From: a virus
Direction: 5' to 3' (one strand)
IMG/VR virus record: IMGVR_UViG_3300044825_002279
Span: 1 to 64,000 of that record
Length of the DNA stretch: 64,000 bases
This document shows, piece by piece, positions 5,277 to 17,788 of the stretch. The position numbers were made by a program, and so were the translations under genes. The notes beneath the pieces are model-generated. The model was not told the origin of the DNA, did not search any database, and worked only from the letters and a program-made list of their open reading frames with translations. The stretch's first letter is position 1, and every line of letters starts with the position of its first letter.

Positions 5277-5311
5277 GGGTCACTCCCACACCGCTATGTG
5301 CGGCTGGGGTG

Positions 5312-5340
5312 AGCAAAGATCAAAAAGTTGCGCCGGTCAA
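5312..5340 (-). promoter_or_regulatory. Leftward early promoter (pL)
   Basis: On the minus strand: TTGACC (5335-5340), a 17-base spacer, TTTGCT (5312-5317). The spacer holds an operator (5320-5333) in inverted orientation. The layout mirrors the rightward promoter at 6036-6065, whose -10 TATGCT is also followed by CA. Repressor bound in the spacer would block polymerase. Confidence 0.65.
5320..5333 (+). promoter_or_regulatory. Operator copy 1 (in pL)
   Basis: TCAAAAAGTTGCGC, identical to 6045-6058 and differing by one base from 5993-6006. Its position between -35 and -10 of pL and its presence at both sides of the repressor gene mark it as a repressor or Cro binding site. Confidence 0.7.
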
Positions 5341-5378
5341 CTCAATTTTTTGAGCATCTCCTGCTCAACTCGACCGGC

Positions 5379-5636
5379 TCAGAACGCGCTCGTGCTCCGG
5401 CGGCAGCGCTCATCCACGACAGGACCGGCCGCGCGACCGTCGGCAAGCACGGGCCACGATCCTATCTGCTGCATGTAGGAGTAGCCGCGATCTAGGCACG
5501 CCTGGTGCGCGCTCGGCCCGGCGCTGTCGCAGGTCGAGAGCCACGCGATCAGGCCGAGCCCGAGAAGCCCCAGGATGGGGAGCGTCGGCCGCGGATTAGC
5601 CGGCTTTGCGCTTGGCCGGACTCTGATCCGCGGCAT
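5379..5636 (-). CDS. Small membrane or lipoprotein-like protein behind the repressor (85 aa)
   Basis: The gene overlaps the 3' end of the repressor gene by 41 bases and is probably co-expressed from the lysogen. After a basic, Pro-rich N-terminus it has a hydrophobic stretch 'LPILGLLGLGLIAWLSTC' and then a 50-residue domain with three Cys. Repressor-linked membrane proteins can give superinfection exclusion; that is inference only. The coding call is moderate because the overlap is long. Confidence 0.5.
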   Translation of the reverse strand: MPRIRVRPSAKPANPRPTLPILGLLGLGLIAWLSTCDSAGPSAHQACLDRGYSYMQQIGSWPVLADGRAAGPVVDERCRRSTSAF

Positions 5637-5982
5637 CGTCTTCGGCGTCGATCGCGTCCAGGAGCTCGCGGATCAGCGTCACGAGCTGCCGGACATTGCG
5701 GGCGCCTGGCTGCGCAGGGGCGCGCACCGGTGGTTCGGAGCCCTGCTTGGGCAGGTGGTCCAGGAAATCGTCCGCTACCGGGGCCAGCCCGAGGAACTGG
5801 TCGGGCGTGATCCTCAGGACCGCGCAAGCCTTCTTGATGTTCCCGAAGCTCGGGTTCCGGCCTGCCTTCCAGTTCCGTAGCGAGTTGGCCGAGACGCCCA
5901 GCCGGCCACCGAGCACGCGATCACGCCAGCCGGTCCTGGCCTCGACCGCCTCGATGATCTCGCGCGTGCTCAAGCTTCGCAT
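5596..5982 (-). CDS. cI-like lysogeny repressor (128 aa)
   Basis: Residues 1-75 contain a helix-turn-helix of the XRE/cI kind: 'LGGRLGVSANSLRNWKAGRNPSFGNIKKACAVL', followed by 'ITPDQFLGL' typical of the end of such domains. The remaining 50 residues are a Pro-rich linker and a C-terminal helix (VRQLVTLIRELLDAIDAE) that could dimerise. There is no LexA-type peptidase domain, so induction by RecA self-cleavage is not expected. The start MRSLSTREI at 5982 sits just below operator copy 2, consistent with autoregulation. A much longer frame to 6489 crosses the rightward promoter and is rejected. Confidence 0.8.
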   Translation of the reverse strand: MRSLSTREIIEAVEARTGWRDRVLGGRLGVSANSLRNWKAGRNPSFGNIKKACAVLRITPDQFLGLAPVADDFLDHLPKQGSEPPVRAPAQPGARNVRQLVTLIRELLDAIDAEDDAADQSPAKRKAG

Positions 5983-5992
5983 GCCCGGATGA

Positions 5993-6006
5993 TTAAAAAG
6001 TTGCGC
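5993..6006 (+). promoter_or_regulatory. Operator copy 2 (upstream of repressor)
   Basis: TTAAAAAGTTGCGC, one base different from the other two copies, 10 bases from the repressor start. On the minus strand it overlaps TTTAAT, a possible -10 for the repressor's own promoter, so binding here may be autoregulatory. Confidence 0.6.
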
Positions 6007-6035
6007 GCCCATTGCACCTGCAATCTTCTGAGCGC

Positions 6036-6065
6036 TTGACGTGCTCAAAAAGTTGCGCTTATGCT
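6036..6065 (+). promoter_or_regulatory. Rightward early promoter (pR) with operator copy 3
   Basis: TTGACG (6036-6041), an 18-base spacer and TATGCT (6060-6065). The spacer contains TCAAAAAGTTGCGC (6045-6058). Transcription would start near 6072, right at the ATG of the Cro-like gene at 6073. Confidence 0.65.
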
Positions 6066-6072
6066 CAACGTC

Positions 6073-6282
6073 ATGGACAGCGTCACCAAAGCCATGACGG
6101 ACCTGCAGCGAAGGCTTAGCGAATGCGGCCTCAGCGCGCCGGTCGTTGCCAACGCGGCCGGGGTCAAGCCCAACACGGTCCGGCGCTTCCTGCGGACCGG
6201 AGCGGCCAATCGGAAATCTCTGGAGCGGATCGAGCGGGCGCTCAACGGTTTCGCGCGCGGCGAGAGCGGTCATGCTGCTTGA
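6073..6282 (+). CDS. Cro-like DNA-binding protein (69 aa)
   Basis: First gene from pR and divergent from the repressor. Residues about 15-50 form a helix-turn-helix ('SAPVVANAAGVKPNTVRRFLRTG') and residues 51-60 the following helix (KSLERIERAL). An in-frame ATG at 6061 lies inside the -10 and cannot be used; the ATG at 6073 has no Shine-Dalgarno and would be leaderless or nearly so. Expected role: competes with the repressor for the three operators and commits to lytic growth. Confidence 0.75.
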   Translation: MDSVTKAMTDLQRRLSECGLSAPVVANAAGVKPNTVRRFLRTGAANRKSLERIERALNGFARGESGHAA

Positions 6283-7043
6283 TGCCTCAAGGCTGCCATC
6301 GGTCGCTGAGGCCGAGCACCCTGGGCGAGCCGACGCTGCGGTGTCGTCCTGGAGATGTCTAGCCGGTTCGGCACACAGCGGTTCCTCGCTGCGACACCGG
6401 GGCACACGATGATGCACCGCAGCAACATGCGGCACGCGTTCACCGTTCACGGTAGCGATGTAAATCAACCTGGACGTTTCGAGAGACAATGCGTCCTCCG
6501 CAGGGCCCTATTCGTGCGCCGCGATACGCTCGGCGATACCCGTCACGATGCCGTTATTTCGAATGCGCCGCAAGGTTGCAATTGTGAGCCTTCGGGTCGC
6601 GTAGATCGATTTACCGGTAGCGCTCAAGCTGCGAATGTCGCGCTGGCGACAGGTCGCGACTTCTACGCGAGCCTTAGCCGCAACTCCACAACCCCAGCGG
6701 CAGCTGCCGCGCGCTCCCGGGCCCAGGGTGACGCGACAGCTGCCGGTCGGGTTTCGGGCCAGCTCGGCCCGGCAGTGGACCTGCGGCCCGGCCAATTTGA
6801 GGCGTTTCCTCGCAGATTGGGGTGGGCTCCGGCCCGCCCCGTCTTTCCGGACCCGATCAATCGGACGCCAGACCCGAGAGGGCTTGCCTCGAAGCGGAAC
6901 ACCGCCGAGCCATCCCGAGTCGTGCGGCCGACGTCGCGTACGGCTTGCCCGCCGGTCGACGGGCATCCCAGACGGTTGACCTCCCTGTACCCACTGGGGC
7001 GCTGCCACGCGGTGGCGCCCCGCTTCTTTCCCAGGCGCGCCGC
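6283..7043. other. 761-base stretch without a confident plus-strand gene
   Basis: Between the Cro-like gene and the next rightward gene. The plus-strand frames here read as low-complexity Arg/Pro-rich sequence without a ribosome site and I do not accept them. The only stretch with coding character is on the minus strand (6508-6795). The first 400 bases are less GC-rich than the surroundings. The segment could carry leader or antitermination sequences, but no defined hairpin was recognised. Confidence 0.4.
6508..6795 (-). CDS. Possible antisense small protein (95 aa, tentative)
   Basis: The frame ending at 6508 has a protein-like C-terminus ('SLSATGKSIYATRRLTIATL', then 'GIVTGIAERIAAHE'), and 14 of its last 20 sense codons end in G or C. 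A TTG at 6795 preceded by GAGGAA is the best start I can find; the frame stays open further upstream. It would run against the rightward transcript. No family is recognised, and there is no identified promoter. Confidence 0.3.
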   Translation of the reverse strand: MAGPQVHCRAELARNPTGSCRVTLGPGARGSCRWGCGVAAKARVEVATCRQRDIRSLSATGKSIYATRRLTIATLRRIRNNGIVTGIAERIAAHE

Positions 7044-9873: not shown

Positions 9874-10271
9874 GCCCGGAACTCGATCCGGCCATGGGCA
9901 CCGGCCCGGCCCCGTCGCCGGGTCACTGCGCCCACACGGACCTGGTGAACCGCACCATGCTGGCGCTCTCGGCCCGTGGCGTCATGTGCTGGCGGAATCC
10001 AACCGGCCGGACCCGCACCGCCTCCGGCAGCGTGTTCGGCTTCGGCCTGGTCGGCTCGGGCGACATCCTGGGCGTCATCCCGCCCAACGGCCGCGCGCTC
10101 GCCGTCGAGGTCAAAACCGGCCGCGGCCGCCAGACGCCAGCCCAGATCCGATTCCAGACGGCGTTCTCGAAACGCGGCGGCCTCTACGTGGTCGCCCGCT
10201 GCCCCGGCGATGCCATTCTGGCGATCGAGCACGCAATGGGTAGTGCCGCCGCCGTGGGTTGGCACGCATGA
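9870..10271 (+). CDS. VRR-NUC domain nuclease (133 aa)
   Basis: GTG start overlaps the helicase stop (GTGA). The core 'GSGDILGVIPPNGRALAVEV' followed by K-T-G-R-G-R-Q-T carries the D...ExK residues of the PD-(D/E)xK superfamily, and 'QIRFQTAFSKRGGLYVVA' matches the VRR-NUC C-terminal part. Such stand-alone nucleases are typical of phage replication modules and may resolve junctions or flaps. It sits between helicase and primase with 4-base overlaps on both sides. Confidence 0.88.
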   Translation: MSPELDPAMGTGPAPSPGHCAHTDLVNRTMLALSARGVMCWRNPTGRTRTASGSVFGFGLVGSGDILGVIPPNGRALAVEVKTGRGRQTPAQIRFQTAFSKRGGLYVVARCPGDAILAIEHAMGSAAAVGWHA

Positions 10272-12325
10272 TGGCGAGCCGCCCGCAGGACATGCTCTCG
10301 ATCGAGCAGATCGCCCTGGCGCTGGGCGGGGCCAAGCGGCTCGGCTCCGGCGGTTGGTCCTGCCGCTGCCCCGCCCACGAGGACGGCCACGCGTCCCTGA
10401 GCCTGTCCGAGAAGGACGGCAAAACTTTATGGCGATGTCATGCGGGCTGTGATCAGACCGCGGTCCGCGACGCCCTGGTGCAGCGCGGACTCTGGCACGC
10501 CAGCGAGCCCGGCCGCGCGGGCACCCCGCACCGGCCGGCCCAGAAACCCAAGCCGGTCGCCGCCAAGAAGGCCGAGCCCACCCAGATCGGCAAGATCGTC
10601 GCGACCTACGACTATGTCGACGTGACCGGCGAGCTGCTGTTCCAGGTGGTCCGGTTCGATCCGAAGACCTTCCGGCAGAGACGCCCGAACGGCTCCGGGT
10701 GGGAGTGGGGCCTCGGCAAGGTCAAGCCGATCCCCTACCGGCTGCCGGACATCCGGGACGCCCACACGGTGTTCGTCGTCGAGGGCGAGCGCGACGTCGA
10801 CAACCTCAAGGAGAAGCTCGGCGTCTGCGCCACGAGTAGCCCCATGGGGGCCGGCAAGTGGCGCATGGAGTTCGGCGAGTACCTCGAGGGCAAGCACGTC
10901 GTGGTGCTGCCCGACAATGACGAGCCCGGCCGGGCCCACGCCGAGGCCGTGGCCGCGAGCGCCGCCCAATACGGCGCGCGCGCGATCCGGATCGTCAACC
11001 TCCCGAACCTGCCCGAGAAGGGCGACGTCTCCGACTGGCTCGCCGCCGGGGGTACGCTCGAGGACCTCCGGGCCCTGGTGCGCGAAACTTCGCTCTACGG
11101 CCGGCCATCCCCCACGGGCTCGGGCGGCGACACGGCCTGGCGCGCGCGCCTGATCCAGGGCGACCACGGCCCGCTCGGCAACGAGGCCAACGTCGCGATC
11201 GCGCTCAACCACGCGCCCGAGCTGGTCGGCCGCATCCGGTTCGATGCGTTCCGGACCGCGGTGCAGATGCGCGAGATGCCCTGGGACGCCCGGCCCGAGT
11301 GGCGGGACTGGACCGACGACGACGACGTGCACCTGGCGTGCTGGATCCAGGAGGCGGGGATCAACTACCCGAGCCACCGGCTGCCGGGCGTCGTCGGTGC
11401 CATGGCGGCCAAGATCCAGCATCACCCGGTCCGGGACTATCTCGACGGCCTGAAATGGGACGGCGAGCGCCGGCTCGAGACATGGCCGTTCACCTATCTC
11501 GGTGCCGCCTACGATGCCGGGAAGGACGCGGCCCTGATCTCGGCCTTCGGGGCCAAGTGGATGATCTCCGCGGTCGCGCGCGTGTTCCGGCCCGGCTGCA
11601 AGGCCGACTGCGCCCTGATCCTCGAAGGCGTCCAGGGGGCCGGCAAGAGCACCAGCGTCCGGGTCCTGTGCGGGCCCGACTGGTACGCCGACCAGCTCTC
11701 GGACATCGGGAACAAGGATGCGTGCCAGGACCTGCGGGGCAAGTGGGTGATCGAGCTCGCGGAGCTCAAGAACGTCCGGGGTGCCGAGGTCGAGAAGGTC
11801 AAGGGCTTCATGTCCCGGGCGGTCGACCACTACCGGCCCAGCTACGCCCGCCGCACGGTCGACATCCCGCGCCAGTGCGTCTTCATCGGCAGCACCAACG
11901 AGGACGCCTATCTCCACGACACCACGGGCAATCGCCGGTTCTGGCCGATCAAGGTGGGCCAGATCGAGATCAAGGCGCTGACCCGCGACCGCGACCAGCT
12001 CTGGGCCGAGGCGGTGCACCGGTACCGCGAGGGCGACAACTGGTGGTTGCCGCGCGAGCTCGAGGACAAGGCCGAGAAGGCCCAGGCGGACCGGCTGGAG
12101 TACGACACCTGGGCGGCGTTCGTGGAGCCGTGGTTAAGTTCAAAGTCAGAAGTCACCACCCGCGAACTAATCGTCGAGTGCATCGGCAAAGAAAAAAAGG
12201 ACATCACGCGGAGTGACGAGACCAGAGCCGCCTACGTGCTGCGCTCGCTCGGGTTCCGCTCCACCGACACGCGCCACCCAATCTGGGGTTGCCGCGTCTA
12301 TAAGAGGGTTGACCGCCTTGCGTGA
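10268..12325 (+). CDS. Primase-helicase, CHC2 zinc finger, TOPRIM and VirE-type ATPase (685 aa)
   Basis: Multi-domain replication protein. Residues 32-61 hold a CHC2-type zinc finger (CRCPAH...CHAGC). Residues about 170-265 form a TOPRIM region (VFVVEGERD; VVVLPDNDEPG). Residues about 440-600 are a VirE/D5-like ATPase with Walker A 'EGVQGAGKST', an Asp/Glu block 'KWVIELAELKN', and 'GNRRFWPI' typical of VapE-like proteins. Start at ATG 10268 overlaps the nuclease stop (ATGA); a TTG at 10259 is in frame but lies within that gene. The probable origin iterons begin 50 bases after its stop, which fits a role in initiation. Confidence 0.9.
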   Translation: MMASRPQDMLSIEQIALALGGAKRLGSGGWSCRCPAHEDGHASLSLSEKDGKTLWRCHAGCDQTAVRDALVQRGLWHASEPGRAGTPHRPAQKPKPVAAKKAEPTQIGKIVATYDYVDVTGELLFQVVRFDPKTFRQRRPNGSGWEWGLGKVKPIPYRLPDIRDAHTVFVVEGERDVDNLKEKLGVCATSSPMGAGKWRMEFGEYLEGKHVVVLPDNDEPGRAHAEAVAASAAQYGARAIRIVNLPNLPEKGDVSDWLAAGGTLEDLRALVRETSLYGRPSPTGSGGDTAWRARLIQGDHGPLGNEANVAIALNHAPELVGRIRFDAFRTAVQMREMPWDARPEWRDWTDDDDVHLACWIQEAGINYPSHRLPGVVGAMAAKIQHHPVRDYLDGLKWDGERRLETWPFTYLGAAYDAGKDAALISAFGAKWMISAVARVFRPGCKADCALILEGVQGAGKSTSVRVLCGPDWYADQLSDIGNKDACQDLRGKWVIELAELKNVRGAEVEKVKGFMSRAVDHYRPSYARRTVDIPRQCVFIGSTNEDAYLHDTTGNRRFWPIKVGQIEIKALTRDRDQLWAEAVHRYREGDNWWLPRELEDKAEKAQADRLEYDTWAAFVEPWLSSKSEVTTRELIVECIGKEKKDITRSDETRAAYVLRSLGFRSTDTRHPIWGCRVYKRVDRLA

Positions 12326-12375
12326 CCTATGCGAGCGTGCCCATTCGTTCGGCGCAATGCCGGGCGCGGCTGGTT

Positions 12376-12680
12376 CCCCAACCTTTCGGAAACGGCCCCA
12401 ACCTTCCCCAACCTTTTTCCCAACCTTTATGGTTTGGAATCAAAGGCTTCACCAACCTCCCCAACCTTTTCCTCGCGCGCACGTATATGGCGCTGTGTCT
12501 GACCGATCCATGGTCAGGTCATCACCTCATCATGTCATCATACCAGTTCGGGTGATCGGTGCGCCGCACCACAGAGATTCCGCCAAAAAGGTTGGGGAGG
12601 TTGGTGAACCTATTGATTTTAAACGAAATAGGTTGGGGAAAGGTTGGGGAAAGGTTGGGGTCGGTAGACAGAGGTTGGGG
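12376..12680. repeat. Inverted iteron array, probable replication origin
   Basis: Six copies of (C)CCCAACCT(TTT) read on the plus strand at 12376, 12396, 12406, 12419, 12452 (partial) and 12459. Six inverted copies, (AA)AGGTTGGGG, are at 12587, 12598 (partial), 12630, 12639, 12650 and 12672. Close copies are 10-13 bases apart, about one helical turn. The 116 bases between the clusters contain the hairpin CTGACC-N7-GGTCAG (12499-12517). The region has no convincing gene, lies directly behind the primase-helicase, and has the form of an iteron origin. A large stem-loop regulating transcription is an alternative. Confidence 0.65.
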
Positions 12681-12698
12681 GAAGTACGGGACGCGGAG

Positions 12699-12715
12699 CG
12701 CGGGTTGAACCCGCG
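12699..12715. repeat. Perfect 17-base palindrome
   Basis: CGCGGGTT-G-AACCCGCG, 46 bases before the next gene and 19 bases after the last iteron. It could be an operator or a hairpin of the origin region. Confidence 0.45.
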
Positions 12716-12760
12716 GTCGCATAGGGCTGGGAAGCCAGCAATCGCGCGGGTTTCCGCCCC

Positions 12761-12958
12761 ATGACCGCCTACCTCGTCGAGTACCGCCGCCCCGCCGGCC
12801 CGTCCTGGTGGGCCAGCTCCGAGGGCGTGACCCTGGAGCCCAGGGCAGCCGCGAGAATGTCCCACGCCGAGGCGCTCGATCATGTCCGGCGGACCCTGGC
12901 GGCCTATCCGGCCGAGGGGCTCAAGGCGCGGGTGGCACTGGCTCGGAGGGTGGCATGA
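12761..12958 (+). CDS. Early phage protein, unknown (65 aa)
   Basis: First gene after the iteron region; no Shine-Dalgarno is seen before the ATG. Starts MTAYLVEYRRPAGPSWWASS and ends in a helix. Coupled by ATGA to the next gene. No family recognised. Confidence 0.65.
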   Translation: MTAYLVEYRRPAGPSWWASSEGVTLEPRAAARMSHAEALDHVRRTLAAYPAEGLKARVALARRVA

Positions 12959-13452
12959 GCCGGACCAAGTCCTCGGCGGCCGCGGCACCCCACCTGCCCT
13001 CGGACGACAGCGCCATCCTGGCCGCGGCCGACATGCGGCTCGAGAACGCCCGGCTCTCGCTCCGGGCCGCCGTCGAGGCCTTGGAGCTCGAGCCCACCTC
13101 GGACTGGGCGGAGAACCGGGTCGCGGCCGCCGCCAGGTCGTTCCGGCTCGAGGCCGTGGCGGGACAGCGGCGCGAGCTCCAGCGGCTCAGGGCCGAGCTG
13201 GCGGGTGCGGTGCGGGTACCGGACGCTGGGCGAGGGCTGTTCCTGGGCCTCTGTCGGGACCGGGACGGCAGCCTACAGGTCGAGCCCTATCCGCCGCAGC
13301 TCCGGGACCCGGTGGCCGGCGGCATCGTCCACGCGGCCGACAGCCCGCTCCACAAGCTCGCGCAGTCCAGCGGTGCCGCCAGTAGCCCCCGCATCGTCAT
13401 GGGCGACACCCGCCCCGTCGACCCCACGATAGCCGCAGGAGACCCGGCTTGA
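12955..13452 (+). CDS. Early phage protein, helical (165 aa)
   Basis: Starts MSRTKSSAAAAPHLPSDD at an ATG overlapping the upstream stop. Residues 20-85 are a helical pair rich in Arg/Glu/Leu, possibly coiled coil. Then comes a less structured C-terminal part. No family recognised. Confidence 0.65.
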   Translation: MSRTKSSAAAAPHLPSDDSAILAAADMRLENARLSLRAAVEALELEPTSDWAENRVAAAARSFRLEAVAGQRRELQRLRAELAGAVRVPDAGRGLFLGLCRDRDGSLQVEPYPPQLRDPVAGGIVHAADSPLHKLAQSSGAASSPRIVMGDTRPVDPTIAAGDPA

Positions 13453-14071: not shown

Positions 14072-14430
14072 CCACCCGGCTCGCCCGCGACGTGGCCCTG
14101 ATCGAGCGCCTGTACTTCGACCAGGGCTGGGAACCCGTCGCGATCGCGGCCCAGATGCACCGTGACGCCGGCTGGGTCGGCTCCGTGGTGGACCAGCTCC
14201 GCCGTGAACCCCAGGGGGGGGCACGCGAGCGGCGCCGCGACGTCCGGCTGAACCACTCGACCCGCCAGGAGCGGGCCCGCGAGGCATCCCTGCAGCTCGC
14301 CGAGATCCGCCGCCAGATCGCGGCGCTGAACCGCGAGGCCCAGCGGCTCGAGCTGATCTGCGTCACCGCCCGACCCGCACCCGTCCCTCAGCGCAGGACC
14401 CAGCCCGATGCCCGAACTGCTGCCGCTTGA
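14068..14430 (+). CDS. Helical early protein (120 aa)
   Basis: GTG start overlaps the upstream stop. Residues 1-55 suggest a helix-turn-helix-like fold ('DVALIERLYFDQGWEPVAIA', 'DAGWVGSVVDQLRRE'). Residues 65-100 form a charged helix. The 3' end overlaps the ParB-like gene by 23 bases. Possibly DNA-binding; not identified. Confidence 0.6.
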   Translation: MTTRLARDVALIERLYFDQGWEPVAIAAQMHRDAGWVGSVVDQLRREPQGGARERRRDVRLNHSTRQERAREASLQLAEIRRQIAALNREAQRLELICVTARPAPVPQRRTQPDARTAAA

Positions 14431-15196
14431 CCTGATCCGCCTCGACGGCGGAACCCAGACGCGATCGATCACCGACGCCGACACGGTCCACAGCTACGCG
14501 GTCGAGATGCAGCGCGGGGACCGGTTCCCGCCCGTCGTGGTGTTCTTCGACGGCCAGACCCACTGGCTCGCCTCGGGGTTCCACCGGTACTACGCGGCCG
14601 AATCCGCATCCCTGGGGCGCATCCTGGCCGACGTCCGGCAGGGCACCCAGCGCGACGCGGTCCTGTTCAGCGTCGGCGAGAATGCCGACCACGGGCTGCG
14701 GCGGACCAACGAGGACAAGCGCCGCGCGGTCCGCAAGCTGATCGAGGATCCCGAGTGGTCGCAGTGGAGCGACCGCCGCATCGCCGAGGCCGCGCGGGTC
14801 CACCACGACATGGTCTCGGACATGCGCGCCGAGCTGTCGCCAACGGCACCGGGCCTGCCCCGGATGCGCACCGTGGAGCGCGGCGGGAACACGTACCAGA
14901 TCGACACCGCGAACATCGGGCGGACGGCCCCGGCGCAGCCCAGCCCGGAACCGGCGAATGCGCCCGGTGCCACCCCGAGCCGCCCGGCCGGCATCCGGGA
15001 GCCCGAGCGGCCGAACCGGGCGGCCATCACGGTCCAGGCCCTCCAGGGGATCGAGCGCGCCTGGGGCACGCTCCCGGACCCGTTCGTGGCGGCACTCGAC
15101 CACCCGGGGTTCGGGATCGAGCAGGCCGAGCGCATCGCCGGGTGGTTCGACAAGCTCGCCCAGGCGCTCCGGCAGCGGATCGAGCGGGCGGGATAG
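14408..15196 (+). CDS. ParB-like nuclease-domain protein (262 aa)
   Basis: Residues 1-110 form a ParB/Srx fold: 'ELLPLDLIRLDGGTQTRSI', 'FPPVVVFFDGQTHWLASGFH' and the following RYYAAESA helix. Residues 100-150 carry a helix-turn-helix ('WSDRRIAEAARVHHDMVSD'), as in ParB. A Pro-rich linker and C-terminal helical domain follow. Phage proteins of this kind are usually called ParB-like; they may act in partition, DNA modification or regulation. No parA or clear parS is visible, so classic partition is not supported. Confidence 0.8.
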   Translation: MPELLPLDLIRLDGGTQTRSITDADTVHSYAVEMQRGDRFPPVVVFFDGQTHWLASGFHRYYAAESASLGRILADVRQGTQRDAVLFSVGENADHGLRRTNEDKRRAVRKLIEDPEWSQWSDRRIAEAARVHHDMVSDMRAELSPTAPGLPRMRTVERGGNTYQIDTANIGRTAPAQPSPEPANAPGATPSRPAGIREPERPNRAAITVQALQGIERAWGTLPDPFVAALDHPGFGIEQAERIAGWFDKLAQALRQRIERAG

Positions 15197-15217
15197 GCCC
15201 AGGAGGACGACGCGGCC

Positions 15218-15523
15218 ATGACCCAGGATCACCTCGCCGACCCGCCACCGTGCGCGATCCGCCAGCGCGTGATAGAACGCTGGCTCAGCGCCGCCCGGCC
15301 GGGCGACCAGATGGTCTACCACCGGGGCGAGCTCTACCGGGACAAGCTCCGGGACCCGGACCTCGCGGCCGCGGCGCAGAGGATGCTGGAGCTGAGCACG
15401 GGCCGGTTTGCGATCATCTCGAAATGCGGCCACGAAAGGGGCCTGCTGGTCGGATCGCGGACCGTGGAACTCGTGACCCGTCGGGAGCGGGGTGAGCTGG
15501 TCTACATGGCCCGCCGCCTGTAG
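15218..15523 (+). CDS. Early phage protein, unknown (101 aa)
   Basis: AGGAGG lies upstream of ATG 15218. The domain 'MVYHRGELYRDKLRDPDLAA' plus a C-terminal strand region suggests a small alpha/beta fold. No family identified. Confidence 0.65.
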   Translation: MTQDHLADPPPCAIRQRVIERWLSAARPGDQMVYHRGELYRDKLRDPDLAAAAQRMLELSTGRFAIISKCGHERGLLVGSRTVELVTRRERGELVYMARRL

Positions 15524-16408: not shown

Positions 16409-17788
16409 ATGTCGCCCGCCCAGCAGAACCCAACGACATGGCCGGCCGACAAGGTCGAGCGGCGGCCGCTCTCCAGTCTGATCCCCTACGCCCGGAACGC
16501 CCGCACCCACAGCGAGGCACAGGTGGCACAAATAGCCGCCAGCATGCGCGAGTGGGGCTGGACCAACCCGGTGCTGGTCGACGAGCATGGCGGGGTTATC
16601 GCCGGGCACGGCCGGATTCTGGCGGCTCGCCAGCTGGGCATCACCGAGGTCCCGGTCATGGTCGCCCGAGGCTGGTCCGAGGGGCAAAAGCGCGCCTACG
16701 TCCTGGCGGATAACAAGCTGGCCCTGAACGCCGGCTGGGACGAGGATCTGCTCAAGGTCGAACTCGCCGACCTGAGCGAACTCGGGATGGACCTCGAACT
16801 CATCGGCTTCTCCGGCGACGAGCTGGCCGCGCTCATGGCCGAGACGACCGAGGGCCTGACAGACCCCGACGCCGTTCCCGATGTGCCGACCGAGCCCGTG
16901 AGCGTCCTGGGCGACGTGTGGGTGCTCGGGCGCCACCGGCTGGCGTGCGGCGACAGTACGACGGTGGAGGCGGTCGACAAGGCGCTGAACGGCGTCAAGC
17001 CGCACCTGATGGTGACCGACCCGCCGTATGGGGTGAAGTACGACCCGAACTGGCGCAACGAGGCGGACAGGGCCAACGGCAAAGCCTACCGCGCGAGCGC
17101 CGTAGGCAACGTGAGCAACGACGACCGCGCCGACTGGTCGGAGGCGTGGGCTCTGTTCCCCGGCGACGTGGCCTATGTGTGGCACGCGCCCGGCGGCAAC
17201 AGCGTAGTCGTCGGCGAGAGCCTCAAGACTGCGGGCTTTGAACTGCGGATGCAGATCATCTGGGCGAAGTCTCGCCTTGTGATCGGTCGCGGCCATTACC
17301 ATTGCCAGCACGAGCCTTGCTGGTACGCGGTCAAGAAAGGCGGCACCGGCCATTGGTCTGGGAGCCGACAGCAGACAACGCTGTGGTCGATTGAGCACCG
17401 CAAATCCGAGACCGGCCACGGCACCCAGAAGCCGGTCGAGTGCATGATGCGCCCGATCGACAACAACAGCAGCTTCGGCCAGGCGGTCTACGAGCCGTTC
17501 TCGGGCTCGGGCACGACCATCATCGCCGCCGAGATGACCGGCCGCTGCTGCCACGCCATCGAGCTTGACCCGGCCTATGTCGACGTTGCCGTGCGCCGCT
17601 GGCAGGAGTTCTGCGGCAAGGTCGCAACCCATGCCGACACCGGCCTCACCTTCGCCGAGATGGCATCAGATCGAGGTGTGGTACTGCCCGCTGGATCGGT
17701 GGCTGGTGGCCCTCACGGACGGGTGGACCCTGCCGTGGGTAGCGAGCCCGATGCTGGGGCATCACGGTCAGTACTCAGTGCTGCTTGA
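16409..17788 (+). CDS. ParB-domain fused DNA methyltransferase, N4/N6 type (459 aa)
   Basis: Residues about 15-115 are a ParB-like domain ('RPLSSLIPYARNARTHSEAQ', GVIAGHGRILAAR). Residues about 165-415 are a DNA amino-methyltransferase: DPPYG (motif IV, near 205) precedes 'EPFSGSGTT' (motif I, near 370), the beta-type order. A target region lies between them. Such ParB-MTase fusions are frequent in phages and protect their DNA from host restriction. No restriction gene is adjacent. The last 37 residues overlap a second gene in another frame and look unlike a methyltransferase end. Confidence 0.88.
   Translation: MSPAQQNPTTWPADKVERRPLSSLIPYARNARTHSEAQVAQIAASMREWGWTNPVLVDEHGGVIAGHGRILAARQLGITEVPVMVARGWSEGQKRAYVLADNKLALNAGWDEDLLKVELADLSELGMDLELIGFSGDELAALMAETTEGLTDPDAVPDVPTEPVSVLGDVWVLGRHRLACGDSTTVEAVDKALNGVKPHLMVTDPPYGVKYDPNWRNEADRANGKAYRASAVGNVSNDDRADWSEAWALFPGDVAYVWHAPGGNSVVVGESLKTAGFELRMQIIWAKSRLVIGRGHYHCQHEPCWYAVKKGGTGHWSGSRQQTTLWSIEHRKSETGHGTQKPVECMMRPIDNNSSFGQAVYEPFSGSGTTIIAAEMTGRCCHAIELDPAYVDVAVRRWQEFCGKVATHADTGLTFAEMASDRGVVLPAGSVAGGPHGRVDPAVGSEPDAGASRSVLSAA

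Follow-up and report, generated by a model that had tools for sequence, protein, structure and literature searches.

Based on the collective evidence of this analysis, the repeat array located directly behind a primase-VapE helicase gene in a stretch of viral DNA is understood as a bidirectional (theta) phage origin of the SaPI type, at which the 688-aa protein encoded upstream would serve as the initiator, binding the sites as two facing rings. We assign this reading a probability of about 0.86. The candidate replication origin of the preliminary description is thus supported by strong circumstantial evidence, namely the occurrence of arrays behind VapE genes, an initiator resembling PriRep1 and the precedent of SaPI, as far as the available part of the literature on it goes. 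Added to that description are a long palindrome that contains the repeats, the failure of its central hairpin, the finding that arrays recur behind VapE while their words change, and a recurrent spacing.

Repeat array and palindrome

The window, by which we mean the whole 64-kb stretch analysed here, comprises bases 1-64000 of a 64,344-base virus record. Genes for terminase, portal, major head, tape measure and tail proteins are recognised in it, and the record is therefore ascribed to a tailed phage. At 5318-6058, three GATCAAAAAGTTGCGC-like sites surround a small minus-strand gene of the HTH_3 (CI/Cro) type, an arrangement that is likely a repressor-operator switch and suggests a temperate phage. 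At 16409-17788, a ParB-like nuclease domain is fused to a DNA methyltransferase (phrog_620 and phrog_498). The array is contained in 435 bp (12326-12760) that hold no convincing gene and directly follow the 3' end of the vapE gene; with the gene ending at 12325 and the first iteron starting at 12376, the iterons come immediately after the initiator gene. The mechanical ORFs running across the segment are 12213-12764 (+) and 12530-12988 (-), and the plus-strand one, which overlaps vapE, returned no family in a Pfam and PHROG scan. The tRNA and Rfam searches of the window gave no match. GC skew, earlier proposed as a check on the origin, shows no turn at the array within the window. No close relative of the window turned up: a DNA comparison with phages gave no match, and a single-protein VapE scan of viral and genome contigs yielded no confirmed relative. 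Two viral contigs retrieved by an exact-pattern scan were dropped as chance hits because their repeats lie inside reading frames unlike VapE.

The exact 7-mer CCAACCT/AGGTTGG occurs 13 times in the whole window, with 12 of the occurrences within 12326-12760 (12376-12680), six on the plus strand to the left and six on the minus strand to the right, which bears out the description of twelve repeats in two facing clusters. Allowing at most one mismatch, CCCAACCTTT is found 10 times in the window, in each case within 12377-12679, as compared to a mean of 0.81 and a maximum of 5 in shuffled sequence. The array is confirmed to be far above chance and to occur nowhere else in the record. Six copies of the word per side had been described; this holds for the 7-mer but not for the full word, since exact CCCAACCTTT is present in only 4 of 6 copies on the left and 3 of 6 on the right, the others differing in one or a few bases. 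The distances between successive sites are mirrored (20, 10, 12, 32, 9 on the left; 127 across the centre; 9, 32, 11, 11, 20 on the right), so that adjacent spacings of 10-13 bases, as given previously, apply to the steps of 10, 12, 11 and 11 but not to those of 20, 32 and 9. The spacings fall near multiples of the helical turn (mean resultant length 0.91 and 0.95 at 10.5 bp; chance 0.005), and the earlier statement that the sites share one helix face therefore holds for the window array; many relatives' arrays use a spacing of 8-9 bp. A second, weaker cluster, of the 8-base word CGCCCGGT in a 4+4 arrangement, was noted inside reading frames at 14905-15305, 2.6 kb behind VapE.

The two clusters are the arms of one interrupted palindrome of about 430 bp. 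In a gapped alignment, the left arm and the reverse complement of the right arm score 144, with none of 500 shuffles exceeding 67. In ungapped 95-base arms, 56 of 63 iteron columns agree, and 19 of the 32 non-iteron columns are identical (permutation mean 8.4; 0 of 10,000 as high). Even the iteron variant is mirrored (iterons 5 and 8). Sequence between the iterons being mirrored as well, the arms are an inverted duplication or are kept alike.

Between the facing clusters, the centre has the length of 116 bases originally reported. The hairpin described in it is not special: the DNA fold has a z-score of -0.57, 53 of 200 shuffles are at least as stable, and the hairpin is ruled out as a distinguishing feature. 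The GC content is 34% in the side gaps between outer and inner sites, 57% in the centre and 71% in the flanks, and the poorest 20 bp of the window's array lie in a side gap. A GC-rich dyad, GCGGGTTGAACCCGC, adjoins the right iteron cluster on its outer side at 12693-12720; the 82 bases around it (12681-12762) fold better than most shuffles (z -2.1).

Table 1. Positions in the window of the repeats, the palindrome and the adjoining initiator candidate gene
Feature	Position	Strand	Basis or remark
Initiator candidate, 688 aa: TOPRIM primase-like N-terminal part, VapE-type helicase, predicted C-terminal winged-helix-like domain	10259..12325	+	
Part of vapE encoding residues 617-688 (winged-helix-like domain by prediction, proposed to read the iterons)	12107..12322	+	secondary structure of model
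Left palindrome arm	12309..12508	+	gapped inverted alignment; starts inside last vapE codons
Iteron 1, outer left	12376..12386	+	repeat scan, arm alignment
Iteron 2, outer left	12396..12406	+	repeat scan, arm alignment
Iteron 3, outer left	12406..12416	+	repeat scan, arm alignment
Iteron 4, outer left	12418..12428	+	repeat scan, arm alignment
Left side gap (outer to inner sites), AT-rich, candidate for melting	12429..12449	.	34% GC
Iteron 5, inner left, variant with ACCAACCTC	12450..12460	+	arm alignment
Iteron 6, inner left	12459..12469	+	repeat scan, arm alignment
Centre between facing clusters	12471..12586	.	57% GC; hairpin not above chance
Right palindrome arm	12554..12741	-	gapped inverted alignment
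Iteron 7, inner right	12587..12597	-	repeat scan, arm alignment
Iteron 8, inner right, variant mirrored in iteron 5	12596..12606	-	arm alignment
Right side gap (inner to outer sites), AT-rich, candidate for melting	12607..12627	.	34% GC
Iteron 9, outer right	12628..12638	-	repeat scan, arm alignment
Iteron 10, outer right	12639..12649	-	repeat scan, arm alignment
Iteron 11, outer right	12650..12660	-	repeat scan, arm alignment
Iteron 12, outer right	12670..12680	-	repeat scan, arm alignment

The primase-VapE protein

The 688-aa protein matches the Pfam family VapE-like_dom (4e-80), and its PHROG matches are primase/helicase families. An AlphaFold model of the full chain, built with 18 viral relatives, reached a mean pLDDT of 79.9 and a pTM of 0.52, the latter making the domain placement uncertain. 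Foldseek and VIA-align both returned PDB 7pds as the top match (Foldseek E 7.8e-29; Z 32.5, rmsd 4.7 over 387 residues, model residues 291-688). The entry contains PriRep1 with dsDNA, and we take PriRep1 to be a SaPI protein, the PDB title naming only PriRep1 with dsDNA. Sequence comparison agrees with the fold match (phmmer 2.5e-48; profile 8.1e-121), a profile built from eight VapE proteins aligns with most of the C-terminal part of the 7pds sequence, and the initiator helicase is thus regarded as homologous to PriRep1. Model residues from about 106 to 287 match the primase cores of DnaG and T7 gp4. At the C-terminal end, the model places helices at 617-626, 634-642 and 651-663 and strands at 631-633, 666-672 and 679-683; over roughly the final 70 residues, the predicted order (helix, strand, helix, helix, strand, strand) is that of a winged-helix-like domain.

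Arrays behind VapE genes in phages and plasmids

With the window protein as query, VapE relatives were found on 160 of 72,556 plasmid records and 1,077 of 50,697 phage records. Seven phage records from the best VapE matches (L010-L016) all have, behind VapE, a gap with repeats in both orientations, each with a different repeated word, and the array follows VapE directly or, in L010, after a small gene. Among the records with a direct array is L014, the phage CL31 in Corynebacterium glutamicum MB001. Three scans of viral contigs, each contributing the best 80 matches of a capped list (80, 80 and 79 new; 239 loci), gave together with the seven records and the window 247 loci in 56 clusters at 60% identity over VapE; owing to this selection, they are not an unbiased sample. 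Tiles of 400 bp from -2400 to +2400 around the VapE stop codon were scored by the count of their most repeated 8-mer (at most one mismatch, both strands), from which the average over 8 shuffles was subtracted. In 33 clusters the top tile has offset 0 and in 9 it has offset -200; 42 of 56 clusters thus have it near the VapE stop, where about 4.5 are expected (2 of 25 tiles); the mean excess is 4.22 and 2.96 at these offsets and 0.12-0.83 elsewhere. A score of at least 3.5 near VapE is reached by 156 of the 247 loci, and an earlier pass over 24 clusters, with tiles spanning the whole loci, had the top tile at offset 0 in 16. The search beside homologous VirE-type primases, proposed in the preliminary description, therefore finds arrays immediately downstream of VapE in most of 56 divergent clusters. 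The words differ between the lineages, and the layout is often similar in distant relatives.

In the other 14 clusters, the top tile is not beside VapE. Two of them are explained: the small gene of L010 shifts the tile to +400, and in L018 (top tile -400) the array is at 5300-5760, inside the 3' end of the VapE reading frame. The L018 iterons appear to be translated as the tail of the initiator. The remaining 12 have their top tile elsewhere, and for some of these, other members of the cluster do carry arrays behind VapE. Relatives devoid of repeats at this site had earlier been named as an argument against an origin; in weak form this applies, as several VapE clusters show no array there.

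The control involved 25 annotated records. In 21 of them, VapE is followed by a gap of at least 200 bp; L267-L270 lack such a gap and were left out for this reason. Scores of at least 3.5 were obtained in 15 of 21 post-VapE gaps versus 2 of 22 other gaps of at least 200 bp taken from the annotation tables (p 3.6e-6). Exceptions in the control are a strong TGTCAAAA array at 6141-6779 of a Nostoc plasmid with VapE (L260), located before a MobV relaxase gene and not behind VapE, and a terminal tandem repeat in a Ruegeria phage record. Arrays also follow the VapE gene on plasmids that have one. An example is pGO128 of Gluconobacter, circular and of 4,340 bp, whose five annotated genes encode a resolvase, two small proteins, VapE and an HTH_36 protein; the array begins immediately after VapE and does not pass the spacing rule described below. 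The HTH_36 protein could also act in replication, so that pGO128 does not prove VapE the sole initiator. In APSE-2 (L266), a putative replication origin is annotated at 1568-1668, upstream of VapE, and a regular iteron array is present directly downstream.

The geometry was analysed on one array per cluster, that of the best-scoring member, 46 being testable. Twelve sites is the commonest total (12 of 46 arrays; range 8-16), the count depending on the score threshold, and two further arrays, L037 and L071, share the 6+6 arrangement. In 8 of 46 clusters, the window included, mirror symmetry reaches p<0.05. It had been pronounced in the first 18 arrays, with regions set partly by hand (combined p 1.5e-8), and is marginal over the 45 other arrays combined (Fisher p 0.042); as a family-wide rule it is rejected. 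What tends to recur is a layout of facing inner pairs about 9 bp apart. The corresponding spacing rule, set post hoc after the first set had been seen, asks for facing sites across a gap of 70-130 bp, neighbours at 7-11 bp and a further site 30-53 bp out, and is passed with a score of at least 3 of 4. It is passed by 22 of 46 clusters against 1.5 expected from permuted spacings and strands. Of these 22 arrays, 21 have a centre of lower GC content than the flanks, and 15 have their GC-poorest 20 bp within the centre.

The unchanged rule was applied to a held-out set of 18 further records (8 plasmids, 10 phages), which may overlap the 56 clusters. The top tile is at -200 to +200 in 12 of them and elsewhere in 6. 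Nine score at least 3.5 beside VapE and nine fall below; eight of the former have at least six sites, and three of these eight testable arrays pass the rule (0.3 expected).

Comparison with known origins, alternatives and biological meaning

Origins of the SaPI type comprise two iteron sets that flank an AT-rich region. The window also has two sets; unlike SaPI, its lowest-GC segments lie between outer and inner sites, not in the centre. In iteron plasmids of the RepA/TrfA type, the repeated initiator sites adjoin the initiator gene, and the initiators are not helicases but load the host DnaB; the window initiator, by contrast, carries helicase and primase-like parts of its own. Iteron recognition is known for the phage P4 alpha protein as well. 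The latter, with its ori and crr, is compared here by description only, and the likeness consists in primase and helicase being fused in one initiator (available part of PMC7145576). The nearest precedent comes from SaPI and SCCmec. According to the part of PMC7581432 at hand, in SaPI origins the iterons immediately follow the gene of the Rep helicase, both SaPI Rep and Cch2 use a C-terminal domain to recognise the repeats downstream of their own genes, and the SaPI Rep sites are thought to be bound as two hexamers. Based on this precedent, the window array is placed as working like a SaPI-type origin, in a phage. Shared with SaPI Rep/ori, PriRep1 (7pds) included, are the self-loading helicase of the same fold and the iterons directly behind its gene, within what that source describes, and the match to PriRep1 in fold and sequence includes the C-terminal region. 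Distinct from SaPI are the 64-kb tailed-phage record in place of a satellite, the fusion of the helicase to a TOPRIM primase-like part and the long mirrored palindrome formed by the arms, the SaPI layout being compared in outline only. Cch2 likewise binds short direct repeats behind its own gene via its C-terminal domain (PMC7581432, same part), but has three 5-nt repeats only, belongs to the D5-type helicase family and has the primase on separate proteins. A literature search of limited coverage returned no paper on VapE, or virulence-associated protein E, with iterons in a phage.

The array could be an origin and its repeats still be bound by another host or phage protein (DnaA-like or a small initiator), with VapE only the helicase loaded there. 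Covariation of word and VapE bears on this point. From 133 selected loci, 29 without the anchor motif and 19 redundant ones were dropped (n=85); word similarity follows both the helicase core (partial rho 0.18) and the C-terminal domain (0.13), each beyond 999 of 999 permutations, and the sequence data alone therefore do not single out the word reader. That the C-terminal domain does no better than the core would fit a separate binder, as would the small gene between vapE and array in L010. The window's gap contains no such gene, however, and the use of their own C-terminal domains by SaPI Rep and Cch2, as reported in the cited part of PMC7581432, argues for VapE; we consider a separate binder distinctly unlikely.

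The position of the array between two genes of the same direction, in a phage that has a repressor region with an HTH_3 protein, could also accommodate an operator or silencer at which an early-gene repressor or VapE controls downstream transcription. Against it, nothing resembling a promoter was found in 12200-12900 in a scan by the sigma-70 consensus only, the repeat in the repressor region is a different one, and twelve sites over 300 bp that recur behind VapE across clusters suit an origin better. An operator in place of an origin is thus highly improbable, and autoregulation may be combined with origin function. The ParB-like proteins with genes further downstream, at 14408 and 16409 (matches to phrog_1033 and phrog_620, the latter in the methyltransferase fusion) bring to mind a parS-like centromere that they would read. 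This is hardly credible, given that no ParA match was found among the 30 window proteins, a subset of the ORFs, scanned with PHROGs, that the 14408 protein is without a Pfam match, and that the arrays go with VapE across clusters.

Operation as a SaPI-type origin would involve an initiator that has a DnaG-like primase part fused to the VapE helicase and is expected to load itself. Its predicted winged-helix-like domain is proposed to bind the 11-bp iterons, and the six sites per side may gather one ring per side, the rings facing each other. The rings would melt low-GC DNA within the array, here most likely in the two 34%-GC gaps, and would then run apart, with the fused primase part presumably priming both forks. 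A generalisation that we hold to be possible, if rather doubtful, is that phages and plasmids of the VapE type share one origin geometry with a freely drifting word: inner pairs about 9 bp apart face each other across about 100 bp, with outer sites about 45 bp further. The six-site half-array would then correspond to a helicase ring with one site per protomer, two facing hexamers would be templated by the DNA, and spacing, not sequence, would be the conserved code.

Lastly, the window site itself is a variant within known SaPI-like origins, and more interest attaches to the pattern across the family. Among the replication helicases of phages, phage-plasmids and some small plasmids, VapE is a common one. 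If most VapE carriers have their origin directly behind the gene, origins would become readable from sequence for many uncultured viruses, the spacing would allow the way in which two facing helicase rings are assembled to be tested directly, and a set of different recognition words on one protein scaffold would be at hand.
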